Source: Bdellovibrio sp. BCCA (lineage in GTDB: Bacteria > Bdellovibrionota > Bdellovibrionia > Bdellovibrionales > Bdellovibrionaceae). From it: a DNA stretch of 64,000 nucleotides. The notes under the pieces were generated by a model. It searched no databases, was not told where the DNA came from, and saw only the letters and a list, made by a program, of their open reading frames with translations. The DNA lies in the NCBI RefSeq assembly GCF_037996825.1, contig NZ_JBBNAC010000001.1:2418001-2482000 (forward strand). The letters are read 5' to 3'. Positions 37,733-43,560 of the stretch are shown here, in pieces. Position numbers and translations under genes: made by a program. Numbering within the stretch: position 1 is the first letter of the stretch; each line of letters starts with the position of its first letter.

Positions 37733-38104
37733 ATGAAAGCATTTATTTTTTCTTTTGCTTTGGTTTGTTCTCCCCTTTTTGTTTTTGCTGGGCAGCTTAA
37801 GTGTGAGTATGGGTTTTCTGGGAGTCCTCTTGGGACGGTGACTTTGGCTGTTGATGATAAAGGTGTTCCTGCGGAGACTGCTACTGTTGCTATGTTTTAT
37901 ACTCCGGCTCGGGAGATGCCTGTTTCGAATGAGAATCCGCAGAACGGTGAAATGCTTCGTTTGATTCTTTCTAAGGATGATCCTAATAATGAAATTCACA
38001 TGATGGTTTATCCGCCTCAGGGGAATACTTATAAAAGTAAACTCATCAATCCTGCGGCTCCTCCGGTGATGAAGGAGCTTTCAGGGAGTTGTCAGCTTCT
38101 TTAA
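37733..38104 (+). CDS. small secreted protein of unknown function
   Basis: 123 residues from the ATG at 37733, chosen because it begins a clear signal peptide (MKAFIFSFALVCSPLFVFAG); upstream frame remains open to 37589 but reads as intergenic. The mature protein has two Cys (one at QLKCEYGF, one at GSCQLL near the end), which may form a disulphide. It has no recognised family. Codons are strongly T-ending, unlike most neighbours. It overlaps the convergent channel gene by four bases. Confidence 0.7.
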   Translation: MKAFIFSFALVCSPLFVFAGQLKCEYGFSGSPLGTVTLAVDDKGVPAETATVAMFYTPAREMPVSNENPQNGEMLRLILSKDDPNNEIHMMVYPPQGNTYKSKLINPAAPPVMKELSGSCQLL

Positions 38105-39348
38105 GAAGCCCTTGTTTGAATGACGTTGTGGATGTGTTCCAGAAATTCTGGATACTTTGCGCACACGTGTTCGAAAGAATCTTTTTTTAGAACGTACAAA
38201 TCACAAAACTGAGTGGCTCTGGCTGTGGCGTTTCTTTTGCCGTCAAAAAGCAGAGCCATTTCTCCGAAGAAACTTCCTTCGACTAATTTTGCAATCACCG
38301 CACCCTGATCTGAGATGATTTCGACGCCGCCTTTGTAAATGAAATACATGGCGTCGCCGGAATCTCCGGTTTTAAAGATTTTTTCTCCTGGAATGCAAAC
38401 GCGGGATTCTAGTTCGTGCATTAAGTCTTCAACGAGTTCATGTGAGGCTCCCTTAAGAAAAGGAACTTGCTCTAGCACGGGACGATTGATGTGAAAAAAT
38501 AATTCCGACTGAATTTTTTTAGGAAGATCTTCCAAAGCTGAATGGTCCCGATAACCTTTTTTATGTTGCCACATGTAGTGATAATAAGAACGAACTCGCG
38601 TGCGCGTATCACTTGGAATGCGATGTGAACGCATGAAGTTTTCAACTTTGTCGAGATTATCCATGTGATGTTCACGAGCCGCATCTTTACGAGCCAGAAG
38701 ACTTGCTACGTTACTCAAGATAAATCCAAATACACCAACACCCGTCACCTGCACCAAGCAAGTAAATAACATCTGCGGAATTGTCTTAGCAGAAATATCT
38801 CCATAACCAACTGTCGTGAGAGTCGTAAACGACCAATAAATCGCTTTCACATATTCATAAACTTGATCCGTATCCGGTCCCGCAGTACCGCTCCCCAAAG
38901 AAATCCAAGCACAAGCAATCAAATGCAACAACAGAGGCATCATCACAAAAATTGGAACCAGACGATACGTGATGGGCTGAAGGTGTCCAAAGCTATCCAA
39001 AATCCCTTTCACATGACGAACATGCCGAGCCGCGAGCAAATTAAAAATCAAAAGCCCACTGACCGTCGTATGAAAGAAAACAAAAGCCATCAGAGAAAGC
39101 GGAAGCAAACAAACAAGATCAAAACAAAGCCCTAAGTTAACCCAAGAACGAAAATCAGAAACATTTTTTTCAGAACGCTGAAAATAAAGATAAACATTGA
39201 TCCCCGCCACCACAGAAATCAAAAGATCAAAAACAATTTCCCAAGCCGGATCCAAAACATACCCAATCAACCGAAGCGGAATCCAAAATCCAACTAGAAA
39301 TGCCCCTGCCACCGAAATCATCTTAAGAACCAAAATCTTACTCTTCAT
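38101..39348 (-). CDS. cyclic-nucleotide-gated K+ channel
   Basis: 415 residues from the ATG at 39348; a TTG at 39417 is less likely. Six transmembrane helices occupy residues about 1-230. The K+ selectivity filter TVGYGD is at residues 179-184 between S5 and S6, and the S4-equivalent (AARHVRHVKG) is only weakly charged. A C-linker follows, then a cyclic-nucleotide-binding domain (about 300-395) with the phosphate-binding cassette GSFFGEMALLFDGKRNATAR. It should pass K+ under control of cAMP or cGMP at the inner membrane. The nucleotide cannot be told from the sequence. Confidence 0.9.
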   Translation of the reverse strand: MKSKILVLKMISVAGAFLVGFWIPLRLIGYVLDPAWEIVFDLLISVVAGINVYLYFQRSEKNVSDFRSWVNLGLCFDLVCLLPLSLMAFVFFHTTVSGLLIFNLLAARHVRHVKGILDSFGHLQPITYRLVPIFVMMPLLLHLIACAWISLGSGTAGPDTDQVYEYVKAIYWSFTTLTTVGYGDISAKTIPQMLFTCLVQVTGVGVFGFILSNVASLLARKDAAREHHMDNLDKVENFMRSHRIPSDTRTRVRSYYHYMWQHKKGYRDHSALEDLPKKIQSELFFHINRPVLEQVPFLKGASHELVEDLMHELESRVCIPGEKIFKTGDSGDAMYFIYKGGVEIISDQGAVIAKLVEGSFFGEMALLFDGKRNATARATQFCDLYVLKKDSFEHVCAKYPEFLEHIHNVIQTRAS

Positions 39349-39420
39349 AAGAATCTCTTCGGAACCCAAAGCACCAAATCCAAGTCTGGAAAAAAACGCC
39401 AAATACTTCAGGACCAAAGC

Positions 39421-39477: not shown

Positions 39478-41364
39478 CTATGTTTTGATGAGCCCTGCAG
39501 TCCAATCGCGAATCATAGCAAGAGTTCCCTGCTTGGCATTGGCAAACTGGACTCCGTAAGCTTGGTTCTTTTCGCACCAGACGACTTGTCCTGTGACCTC
39601 GATGATTTCATGGCCATCAGGGCTTTGGATTCTCATCGTGACGATGCCGCCTTTTTCCAATGCTTGGTCGGTGTTGAATGAAAGACCGCCCTCGGAAATC
39701 GTGTTCATCGCTCCGACCAATTCGCGGTCGCCGACTTTCACGCGGATTTCAGAACTCATTTTAAAGCGTTCGTAACGACGTTTGTCTTTTGGATCGGCTG
39801 AAGCAGCACTTCTTACACGCAACACTTGCCATACAGCGAGTGGCACTAAAAGAAGTCCAACCACAATACCAATCGGTGAACCACCTGATCCATCGTCAGA
39901 ACCCGGACCGTTTTTCGTGACAGCTTTCACCAAACCGCAACCGCCTCCACCAGCGGCATCACTGGCTGGAGATCTGTCCGCCAAGTAAGACGGCTTGTAA
40001 CTTGGTTGCGCTGAAGCTGTCGACACCATTTGCTTGGCTGATTGAATCAGATAAAGAGCATCAATGCGTGCGCTTGTTGAAACAAGGCCATTTAAGTAAC
40101 CATTTTGCTGAGCTGTTTGCAAAATAAGCTGCTTCATTTGATAGCCAGATAAAGATGGTGCTTCTCGAAAAGCGAGTCCCGCCATACCAGCTACAAATGG
40201 AGTCGCCATACTTGTTCCCGACATCGACATTGTCGCGTTACCAGGAACGGTACTTTCAATATACTCACCAGGGCTTCCAATATTAACGGTGTTTGCACCG
40301 TAATTCGAAAAACTTGAAAGATCATCATAGCGAGATGTTGAAGCCACCGCCAAGTTGCTTGGCACGTCGTAGTTCGATGGATACATTGGATTCACATCAT
40401 TATTATTCGAATAGTTACCCGCTGCGGAAACCACAAGAACGCGGTGATCGTAGGCGTAAATAATCGCATCGTGAAGAGAACGACTGTAACCCGCTCCCCC
40501 CCAAGAGTTGTTGATCACACGAGCGCCGTTATTAACGGCATAATAAATCGCGCGAATCGCATTCGACGTAGAGCCCGAGCCACTCGCACCTAGGAATTTC
40601 AAAGGCATGATCAGCAGTTTGGATTCTTGCAAAGGACGCGCAAAAATATTTTGACCTGTGCCGACGATAATTCCCGAAACGTGTGTTCCGTGATCGTCAT
40701 CGTCAAAAAAATTATTTGTGTTATTGATGAAGTTCCAACCGTTGATATCGTCGACAAAACCGTTCTGGTCGTCATCAACTCCAGGGAGGCCATTTGCTTC
40801 TGCCTGATTGATCCAAAGAGCTCCTGTTCCGCCGTTGGCAACAGGCTTAAAGACATCGTGATATCTATCAAGACCGGTATCAACAACCGCGACAACGACT
40901 TTATCATTGGAAGATGCTAACGGAGAAAGTATCGGCCATGCCGAAGCCACTCCCGTATTTGCATTTGATTGTGAATAAACCGAAGCATTTGTAGAAGCCG
41001 CATTCGCGTTGACCACCTGCTCATATGTCAGACGCTCAACAGGGCCATTGGGCTCCACTTCACTTTTTTCCAAAACGAAGTTCGGTTCAATATATTCAAC
41101 GTCGGGATCGTTTTTAAGAGCCTCAAAATTGACTTTTTCATCTGCGGATTTCATGGAAACCTGCATGATTCCCATACCAGGGAAGGAGGCTTTTAAAGAG
41201 GCTTTGCCTGAGAGTTTTTGTTGCGCAATCGCTGCGCCTCCCGAAGAAGCCTTAAACTTAATCAGGTACTCGCCAGGAACGACTTTAGGTTGTACTTGCG
41301 CCATCGCGAGTCCACCAACCAACGTACTGCATGAAATAAAAAGACTTCTTAGAATCGGTTTCAC
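39478..41364 (-). CDS. subtilase (S8) - transmembrane helix - PilZ-like fusion
   Basis: 628 residues from a GTG start with AAGGAG upstream. Order: signal peptide (1-22), I9-type inhibitor propeptide (about 28-98), and S8 protease with Asp162 (VVDTG), His225 (DHGTHV) and Ser385 (SGTSMATP). Then come a Gly-rich GGGGCG (472-477), one transmembrane helix (about 498-516) followed by Arg-x-Arg, and a PilZ-like domain (about 527-628). The latter has RRYER (529-533) and TISEGG (555-560), where the usual D/N is Thr. The Gly-Cys motif plus helix plus Arg resembles MYXO/GlyGly-CTERM sorting tails, which normally end the protein. The predicted topology puts the protease outside and PilZ inside the inner membrane. 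Confidence 0.88.
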   Translation of the reverse strand: MKPILRSLFISCSTLVGGLAMAQVQPKVVPGEYLIKFKASSGGAAIAQQKLSGKASLKASFPGMGIMQVSMKSADEKVNFEALKNDPDVEYIEPNFVLEKSEVEPNGPVERLTYEQVVNANAASTNASVYSQSNANTGVASAWPILSPLASSNDKVVVAVVDTGLDRYHDVFKPVANGGTGALWINQAEANGLPGVDDDQNGFVDDINGWNFINNTNNFFDDDDHGTHVSGIIVGTGQNIFARPLQESKLLIMPLKFLGASGSGSTSNAIRAIYYAVNNGARVINNSWGGAGYSRSLHDAIIYAYDHRVLVVSAAGNYSNNNDVNPMYPSNYDVPSNLAVASTSRYDDLSSFSNYGANTVNIGSPGEYIESTVPGNATMSMSGTSMATPFVAGMAGLAFREAPSLSGYQMKQLILQTAQQNGYLNGLVSTSARIDALYLIQSAKQMVSTASAQPSYKPSYLADRSPASDAAGGGGCGLVKAVTKNGPGSDDGSGGSPIGIVVGLLLVPLAVWQVLRVRSAASADPKDKRRYERFKMSSEIRVKVGDRELVGAMNTISEGGLSFNTDQALEKGGIVTMRIQSPDGHEIIEVTGQVVWCEKNQAYGVQFANAKQGTLAMIRDWTAGLIKT

Positions 41365-41536
41365 CGGTTCTCCTTCTCAACCCTATTCTCTTCGGCCAGA
41401 AGTCCGGGGGGGTTGAGTGAAAAATGGGTGAAAAAAACTGTCTCATTTTAAGAACGGCGTAAGAGCTTGAAGAGCCTCGACTTAGCTGATATTTAGTTTC
41501 AACCGATAGGTTAAAAAGCGAACAGGACATCCAGCT

Positions 41537-42139
41537 ATGAAACAACTTCAGAAAATCTTCTTGCAAGGTCTCGTGACTTTCCTACCGATTGCGCTGACGA
41601 TTTACATCATCTACGCCGGTATCGCGATCGTGGATAGTTTTCTCGGGGATGCTCTCCGCCAAATTCTTCCCATCTACATACCGGGTTTAGGTTTCTTACT
41701 TACAATTGTGTTGATTCTTCTTTTGGGTTTGATTCTCAATAACATCTTGGCTGGCGGTATCTTCCAAAAGCTGGAACAAAAGCTGACGCAAGTTCCATTT
41801 ATCAAAGCGATCTACAGTCCCCTGCGCGATCTAATGAACTTGTTTTCAAAAGGTGGCGGTCCGGGTGGTTTGCAAAAAGTTGTGCTTGTGGATTTGTCCG
41901 ACTCCGGAGTTCGCGCGTTGGGTCTTGTGACGCGTGAAAGTTTTAAAGACGTTCCTGCCATTGAACAAAATGCGGGAGATCGTATCGCCGTTTACATTCC
42001 GATGAGTTACGGTTTGGGTGGTTTTACTTTGATGGTGCCACGCTCTCGTATCACTCCGTTAGATATGCCGATTGAAAAAGCCATGAGTCTTGCGATCACG
42101 GGCTGGGTGAAAGCTGAAAAAGAAGGCGAGAAAAAATAA
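41537..42139 (+). CDS. DUF502-family membrane protein
   Basis: 200 residues with two transmembrane helices (about 12-32 and 50-75) and a C-terminal soluble domain. The domain carries the DUF502 pattern: a PLPGLGF-like IPGLGFLLT turn, FIKAIYSPLRDLMNLF, and YIPMSYGLGGFTLMVPRS. Function of the family is unknown. Its stop shares a base with the start of the next gene (TAATG), so the two are coupled. AGGAC precedes the ATG. It is divergent from the subtilase-PilZ gene with a 172-bp gap. Confidence 0.85.
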   Translation: MKQLQKIFLQGLVTFLPIALTIYIIYAGIAIVDSFLGDALRQILPIYIPGLGFLLTIVLILLLGLILNNILAGGIFQKLEQKLTQVPFIKAIYSPLRDLMNLFSKGGGPGGLQKVVLVDLSDSGVRALGLVTRESFKDVPAIEQNAGDRIAVYIPMSYGLGGFTLMVPRSRITPLDMPIEKAMSLAITGWVKAEKEGEKK

Positions 42140-43560
42140 TGTCCGAGTATTCTTCTGAAAACACCACGGGTAAAGCACTGCGAATCAATATCGACACCAC
42201 TCGCTATGGTGTGTTTGCAGAAATCGGTGCTGGTCAAGAAGTGGCTCGCCACTTTTTTCAAGCCGGAAAAGCTTCTCAAACAATTGCTAAAACTATTTCT
42301 GCTTACGACATGATCGTGAGTGACGATATTTATGGTCGTGAGCCCAATGGCCGTTATGTCTGCGAATCACGTTTGGAAAAAATGCTGGGTCATGAGTACG
42401 ATCTTTTGACGGATCGCCTGTCATCAACACGCGGAGCGCAAACGAAGTTCTTCTCTTTTGCAAACACGGTGGCAACGGCTTCATCCAGCAGCAACAAACA
42501 AACACAGAAACAATCTCACGGTTGGATGGGTGTGCGCTTTCAAGCAGATCCCAACGGCCCTTCCAACGACATTATCTTGCATGTGCGCATGCTGGATCGT
42601 CATCGTTTGCAACAACAAGAAGCTTTGGGCGTTTTAGGTGTCAACCTTCTGACGTGCGCCTTCTATCATTTAGACAAAGTCGAAGATTTTATTACTCATC
42701 TTGTGGAAGGTCTTAAAGAAGGTCAGATCGTTATCGATGTGATCAAATTCAAAGGCCCGACAGTAAAACATTTCGATGGCCGCCTAATGAATTTGGAATT
42801 GGTTCGTAGAGGTTTGGCAGAGGCGATTTTATTTTCTCCAAACAATGAAATCCTTAATGTCTCTGATGCTATTTATGGAAAAGCCTTGCTGATTCAGCGT
42901 GGAACATTCCGTCCGGTGACAAGCACTCACCTCGATGTTTTGCAAAAAGGTTTAGCGCAAATCAAAGATGACGTTCGTAAAAGCGAAGGCAAAGATCTTG
43001 ATGTGTTACCGATTATGGAGCTCACGATGCACAACTTGCAAACGGATGGCCATATCAATGAGAAAGACTTCTTAGCCCGTGTTGAAACTTTGACGAATCT
43101 TGGAATGCACGTTTTGATTTCCAACTTCTTCTTATTCTATGGACTTAAACGTTTTATCCGTCGCTACAACCCGCACTTTATGGCGTTGGTTGTGGGAGCA
43201 AGCCATTTAGAAAAACTCTTTAAAGAGGAACACTATAAAAATCTTGAAGGTGGTCTTCTTGAAGGTTTGGGTAAACTTTTAGAGCAAAAGACGAAGCTCT
43301 ACATTTACCCGCATAAAACGTCGACGTTATGTCTAACAACGAAGAGTTTCTTTCCTGCTCCTCATCTTCGTCATATCTATGCTTATTTTACAGAGAATAA
43401 GCAGATCGTGGATATTTCAGGATGTGACGAAACGGCAGATTATTTGCACTCTGTTGATGTGATGCGCATGATTGAAAAAGGCGATCCTGCTTGGGAAAAG
43501 CTTGTACCTGAAAAAGTGCGCGATCTGATTAAATCCAAAAAACTTTTTGGTTATCAATAA
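42139..43560 (+). CDS. large conserved cytoplasmic protein of unknown function
   Basis: 473 residues with no signal peptide or transmembrane segment. I have seen similar proteins labelled as nicotinamide-nucleotide adenylyltransferases or TonB-related proteins, but the sequence shows no HxGH nucleotidyl-transfer motif. I therefore give no function. Notable stretches are NIDTTRYGVFAEIGAGQEVA near the start (a Gly-rich turn), VVGASHLEKLF and DISGCDETADYLH. Its start overlaps the DUF502 stop, which makes a functional link likely. The end converges on ftsH with a four-base gap. Confidence 0.8.
   Translation: MSEYSSENTTGKALRINIDTTRYGVFAEIGAGQEVARHFFQAGKASQTIAKTISAYDMIVSDDIYGREPNGRYVCESRLEKMLGHEYDLLTDRLSSTRGAQTKFFSFANTVATASSSSNKQTQKQSHGWMGVRFQADPNGPSNDIILHVRMLDRHRLQQQEALGVLGVNLLTCAFYHLDKVEDFITHLVEGLKEGQIVIDVIKFKGPTVKHFDGRLMNLELVRRGLAEAILFSPNNEILNVSDAIYGKALLIQRGTFRPVTSTHLDVLQKGLAQIKDDVRKSEGKDLDVLPIMELTMHNLQTDGHINEKDFLARVETLTNLGMHVLISNFFLFYGLKRFIRRYNPHFMALVVGASHLEKLFKEEHYKNLEGGLLEGLGKLLEQKTKLYIYPHKTSTLCLTTKSFFPAPHLRHIYAYFTENKQIVDISGCDETADYLHSVDVMRMIEKGDPAWEKLVPEKVRDLIKSKKLFGYQ

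Follow-up and report, generated by a model that had tools for sequence, protein, structure and literature searches.

What is the role of a protein that joins an exported protease to a PilZ domain, and what is the function of the sorting-type tag that lies between the two? This question is raised by a gene at positions 39478..41364 (minus strand, stop codon included) of the window, the 64,000-nucleotide stretch of Bdellovibrio sp. BCCA DNA that was analysed. The combination of an S8 protease (subtilase) and a PilZ domain has been on record since 2008, when a survey listed a "Subt-PilZ" protein of B. bacteriovorus (NP_969350.1) in a table only, without functional work (PMC2605481). That entry shows the same pair of domains, but does not include the tag, the topology, the distribution or a mechanism (PMC2605481). 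An earlier note on this DNA knew of no described system of this form; the domain pair had in fact been listed, although no explanation of the combination was found in that listing. The literature searched contained no account of the tag, its placement within the protein or a mechanism linking PilZ to a protease. What is new is the sorting-type tag and its mid-protein position. NP_969350.1 is presumably the HD100 ortholog of the window protein (very likely, in our judgement); a suggested identity of this ortholog with Bd2620 was not confirmed and is not retained.

The gene encodes a protein of 628 amino acids, for which full-length orthologs occur across the class. The reading frame has a GTG start codon and no internal stops on inspection of the sequence, and a Shine-Dalgarno sequence (AAGGAG; 41370..41375, minus strand) lies 5 bases ahead of the start. 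All of the protein features that follow are encoded on the minus strand. Residues 1-22 (41299..41364) are predicted from hydropathy to form a signal peptide, for which cleavage between AMA and Q was assigned by inspection. This is followed by an inhibitor-like propeptide (residues 26-95; 41080..41289; PF22148, Fervidolysin_NPro-like, E-value: 4.5e-6) and by a Peptidase_S8 domain (residues 154-422; 40099..40905; PF00082, E-value: 1.9e-50). The score of the latter (172 bits versus a cut-off of 21.8) places the protein in the S8 family. The catalytic triad consists of D162 (in VVDTG), H225 (in HGTHV) and S385 (in GTSMA), with N285 as the oxyanion residue, and each of these four residues is invariant in the 68 aligned orthologs. 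Secreted subtilases of the deseasin MCP-01 and thermitase type have neither a transmembrane tag nor a PilZ domain. The window protein shares the protease domain and the triad with these secreted S8 enzymes (deseasin MCP-01, PDB 3vv3; thermitase).

Behind the protease domain lies the tag (residues 472-520; 39805..39951), which is recognized both by the A1 profile described below and by an HMM built from 16 non-S8 proteins (E-value: 2.6e-10). It contains the signature G475-C476-G477 (39934..39942; part of GGGGCG), continues with a single transmembrane helix (residues 497-515; 39820..39876; hydropathy 2.23 over 19 residues) that contains P508 (39841-39843), and closes with R516-V-R518 (39811..39819), a probable cytoplasmic stop-transfer sequence that marks the tag end. 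The PilZ domain (residues 527-622; 39499..39786; PF07238, E-value: 1.1e-18) contains the motifs RxxxR (RRYER, residues 529-533; 39766-39780) and TISEGG (residues 555-560; 39685-39702). The propeptide, Peptidase_S8 and PilZ matches are all above the curated Pfam cut-offs. A hydropathy scan found only two strong hydrophobic segments, the signal peptide (approximately residues 4-22) and the helix at 497-515. On the standard reading of topology, the protein would have one transmembrane helix with its N-terminus outside and its C-terminus inside. These features indicate that the protein is very probably a zymogen S8 protease with a sorting-type tag across the inner membrane and a PilZ domain on the other side. 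The earlier note had described the same order of parts from the letters alone (a complete protease with signal peptide and propeptide, GGGGCG, one helix, Arg-x-Arg and a PilZ-like domain), and this description was upheld throughout, coordinates and motifs included. Its placement of the protease on the outward-facing side agrees with all sequence signs, which predict export and give no sign of a cytoplasmic location.

It is extremely improbable that this arrangement is an artefact of a frameshift, a chimeric assembly or the chance joining of two genes. Such an origin is hard to reconcile with the dozens of independent orthologs, which are full length at 39-81% identity and hardly ever interrupted by a stop, or with a dN that is low relative to dS over the whole gene. 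The occurrence of full-length orthologs at all distances rules out a frameshift or chimera, and the gene is single and intact. Relatives with the same order of domains, which the earlier note proposed to look for, are common: among the 106 good-quality genomes of the class (at least 90% completeness), 98 contain a match at E-values of 1e-90 or lower, nearly all of which extend from the protease to the PilZ end. There is nearly always one copy per genome. Across 291 genomes sampled from the phylum, the PilZ domain was never matched outside of the class, where only the protease part was found, once with the tag. A search of genome contigs for related loci returned S8 matches only. No ortholog was found in G008, a genome of the same genus that is 96% complete, while similarly complete close relatives all have one; this absence counts against the mechanism proposed below.

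The near-universal, core-gene distribution in the class, with absence from several small genomes, could fit a housekeeping protease for quality control or assembly, in which the helix would be an inner-membrane anchor and the PilZ domain would be structural only. This explanation is very unlikely, because the ligand-site residues of the PilZ domain are conserved, the tag is common to exported enzymes, and the signal peptide and inhibitor-like propeptide are as in secreted subtilases. At the sequence level, every part of the protein is evidently under selection. Pairwise comparisons within the genus gave a lower dN for the PilZ domain (0.04-0.14) than for any other region (for example, 0.11-0.24 for the S8 domain).

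The PilZ domain (67.9 bits versus a cut-off of 22.5) ranks first among the 18 matches to this family in the genome. Residues 519-628, modelled with AlphaFold2 from the single sequence (mean pLDDT 64), are predicted to form a six-stranded barrel and a C-terminal helix, and the PDB entries that fit the model best are Alg44 PilZ domains with bound c-di-GMP (E-value: 1e-4); the PilZ sequence alone gave no significant match in the PDB. The Pfam score and the barrel, the latter predicted with moderate confidence, assign this region to the PilZ family, and the match of the model to a c-di-GMP-bound structure would favor a nucleotide-responsive protease. As in c-di-GMP receptors, the RxxxR motif is present, with R529 and R533 invariant (68/68), which argues for ligand binding. 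The second motif, [D/N]xSxxG, is incomplete: S557 (66/68) and G560 (68/68) are present, but T555 takes the place of D/N. This replacement is a point against the proposed mechanism, and the earlier note had suggested that it may weaken nucleotide binding. The variant is real, but of the 68 orthologs 44 have Thr and 19 have Ser at position 555 (together 63/68), and Ser or Glu likewise occupies this position in other PilZ domains encoded by the genome; therefore, it is not evidence of decay. B. bacteriovorus produces cGAMP (PMC9140294), and, speculatively, Thr or Ser at position 555 may broaden the range of ligands.

The conservation of the PilZ domain can also be read in another way. PilZ surfaces often bind partners, and the domain could serve as an address rather than as a switch, holding the protease at a cytoplasmic partner or at the pole (for example, to the pilus or flagellar machinery) while the tag is processed independently. 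Consistent with this, the low dN within the genus points to more conservation than would perhaps be required for a ligand pocket by itself. The invariant RxxxR argues for ligand binding instead, and such an address would be without a known partner; this explanation is considered unlikely.

The tag is conserved in its critical positions. G475, C476 and P508, the last of these in the middle of the helix, are each invariant in the 68 orthologs; all 68 have Gly or Ala at position 477, and 66 have a basic residue (Arg or Lys) at position 516. In contrast, the linker ahead of the tag and the spacer within it are among the most variable parts of the protein. The general build can be written as GC[GA], approximately 20 residues, a Pro-containing transmembrane helix and Arg. 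The A1 profile, built from the tails of the S8-PilZ proteins, was used to find the tag on other proteins of the phylum, and it also matched proteins without PilZ in other genomes. Eighteen such open reading frames were read. In every one of them, 1 to 14 residues separate the end of the tag from the stop codon, and a signal peptide is recognizable at the start of most. The proteins include matrixin-type M10 proteases, C25 gingipain-like proteins, SCE4755/LPMO-like proteins, other subtilases and fn3 proteins, while some are unassigned. Tag bearers from the loci L119-L137 (for example, L133:399-7955:-, L120:417-1154:- and L119:735-1520:-) represent at least five unrelated exported families, and their tags exceed the cut-off of none of the NCBIfam sorting models tried. 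Among all tag bearers, the S8-PilZ protein alone has a domain behind the tag.

In the reverse direction, a profile of 16 non-S8 tags picks out the embedded tag of all 68 S8-PilZ proteins (64 of them at E-values below 0.01) and has no matches at E-values below 1 in reversed sequences; this two-way test is partly circular, as the non-S8 tags had themselves been retrieved by the S8 profile. That the 18 other tags are C-terminal is evidence independent of the profile test. Taken as a whole, the tag is probably a functional signal of the sorting type. No second convincing bearer was found in the window's own genome, which contains only weak TM-like matches, and a sortase would thus serve one client there, a point against the mechanism proposed below. 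A second tag-like match within the genus occurs in a 250-amino acid open reading frame (G018:C1:1476095-1476223, minus strand; E-value: 1.2e-5).

The earlier note had likened the tag to the MYXO-CTERM and GlyGly-CTERM tails. The resemblance to a sorting tail holds, as the tag is shared with 18 terminal bearers, but assignment to either system does not: no TIGR03901 match, CPBP protease or rhombosortase above cut-off was found in the genome. The likeness to MYXO-CTERM lies in the Cys signature, the transmembrane helix and the Arg, as well as in exported enzymes as clients (PMC11980579). All three of these signature elements are present in the S8-PilZ tag (C476 in 68/68, R/K516 in 66/68). MYXO-CTERM is found at the extreme C-terminus, whereas the S8-PilZ tag is embedded, with the PilZ domain after it, and has an invariant Pro in its helix. 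In Myxococcus, Cys-containing tags of similar build are cut for surface anchoring by the CPBP protease MrtX (PMC11980579). The MYXO-CTERM model TIGR03901 has no matches in the window's genome even at an E-value of 10; the best match among the other tags scores 18.2 bits (cut-off 20), and one tagged matrixin weakly matches a "myxosortase-dependent metalloprotease" model. No CPBP/Rce1-like protein (PF02517) was found in the same genome at E-values of 1 or lower. Of 60 class genomes sampled, 28 have CPBP proteins and 32 do not, and at least three genomes (G143, G070 and G118) have terminal tags without CPBP. Membership in the MYXO-CTERM/myxosortase system was rejected on the lack of both a TIGR03901 match and a CPBP protein in the window's genome.

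Two other processing enzymes were considered. The exosortase of the PEP-CTERM system (PF09721) was found in none of 20 relatives, the window's genome included, and was rejected on this basis. The GlyGly-CTERM/rhombosortase system is similar in its Gly-rich signature before the helix, its basic end and its subtilase clients (PMC3237569), but the invariant Cys and Pro belong to the S8-PilZ tag. The three rhomboids of the genome score 26.8, 37.0 and 40.2 bits against the rhombosortase model TIGR03902, all below the cut-off of 84, and rhombosortase was likewise rejected. However, all 40 genomes examined for rhomboids have them, and proteins of this family accept substrates such as Pro-broken helices; a rhomboid may therefore still process the S8-PilZ tag. 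That no known sorting enzyme was found in the window's genome counts against a processed tag.

Comparison of tagged proteins suggests how the tag and the PilZ domain came together. Five tagged subtilases of the class (L073, L074, L075, L086 and L087) do not have a PilZ domain, and they nest inside the S8-PilZ tree, in which several branches are weak. For this reason, loss of PilZ is likelier than a late gain, and the tree suggests several losses of the domain with retention of the tag. The same nesting disfavors a PilZ-less ancestral form, although many branches are weak and the out-of-class L088 falls outside. L088 (G146, another class) is a subtilase with a C-terminal tag that branches apart from the S8-PilZ clade; the tag would then be older than the PilZ fusion, or have spread between proteins. 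Retention of the tag after loss of PilZ indicates that it has a use of its own.

These observations bear on the main rival to gated processing of the tag, in which the protein is never cut and functions as a receptor-protease comparable to LapD/LapG. The tag would be a permanent anchor, and the dinucleotide would shift the oligomeric state or clustering of the protein, perhaps via a C476-C476 disulfide, and so control protease activity in the periplasm. Maintenance of the fusion throughout the class, the invariant RxxxR and the lack of a known sortase in the genome are all in keeping with an uncut receptor, as is C476, which is the sole cysteine between the signal peptide and the helix of the window protein and could form an inter-chain disulfide. 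The Gly-Cys-Gly/Pro-helix/Arg unit is, against this, C-terminal on unrelated proteins and kept upon PilZ loss. Because it is terminal elsewhere and outlasts PilZ, the tag fits a signal for processing or anchoring better than a private signalling helix, and the uncut receptor is regarded as somewhat unlikely.

The genes adjacent to the S8-PilZ gene were also compared. A DUF502 membrane protein (41537..42139, plus strand) is its divergent neighbor in almost all family-f1 loci read. Together with a 473-amino acid protein without a Pfam match, it occupies window positions 41537-43560 (plus strand), and nearly all of these loci have the pair in divergent orientation beside the S8-PilZ gene. A K+ channel with a cyclic-nucleotide-binding domain is encoded 60 bases downstream on the same strand (38101-39417, minus strand). 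Among the loci read, this channel is found downstream only in the window's own genome, and most same-genus loci with enough flanking sequence have MgtE. An operon with the channel was rejected, as the arrangement is not conserved.

The proposed model for the S8-PilZ protein, in which a protease outside of the cell is controlled from within, is as follows. The S8 protease would be made as a secreted zymogen and held in the inner membrane by one transmembrane helix. The tag would be the substrate of a putative membrane enzyme that modifies and/or cuts it, and processing would leave the protease free to exit the inner membrane while the helix and PilZ domain stay behind. The PilZ domain may bind c-di-GMP or another cyclic dinucleotide and in this way set whether, where or when processing happens, and the intracellular messenger would thereby set the amount or place of active outer protease. 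As a whole (anatomy, processed tag and dinucleotide-gated release), this model is plausible at somewhat below even chances. The long flexible linker counts against it, as it makes rigid allosteric coupling through one helix unlikely. Gated processing as the mode of coupling is put forward more tentatively. Gated processing is preferred because the tag residues are invariant and outlast PilZ loss, and because a lasting fusion is hard to explain if the halves always part at once. The class-wide fusion (98/106 good genomes) is consistent with the model, and the cutting and surface anchoring of Cys tags in Myxococcus (PMC11980579) provides an analogy for tag processing. A further proposal, that the mid-protein tag is a sorting signal gated by a second messenger, with PilZ as its latch, and represents a novel class of Cys/Pro sorting signals in the Bdellovibrionota, is doubtful.

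The nearest known parallel in logic is LapD/LapG (BpfD/BpfG), where a cytoplasmic c-di-GMP receptor controls an outward-facing protease across the inner membrane (PMC3032553, PMC3032545). LapD is a degenerate GGDEF-EAL protein that captures a separate cysteine protease, whereas the S8-PilZ protein, in which no GGDEF-EAL domain was found, joins PilZ covalently to a subtilase through a single helix. On our reading, it brings together inside-out control of proteolysis by c-di-GMP and a sorting tag of the Cys type.

Predators such as Bdellovibrio rely on c-di-GMP enzymes to choose among invasion, gliding exit and axenic growth (PMC3271064). The c-di-GMP receptors are mostly unassigned, and the S8-PilZ protein is a concrete candidate for a receptor-effector. 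The tag points to a putative processing enzyme in the phylum, most of the genomes sampled from this genus being without a detectable myxosortase, and may serve as a marker for finding surface-anchored enzymes. If the model is correct, nearly every member of the class has kept a one-protein route by which an internal cyclic dinucleotide would act on a protease outside.
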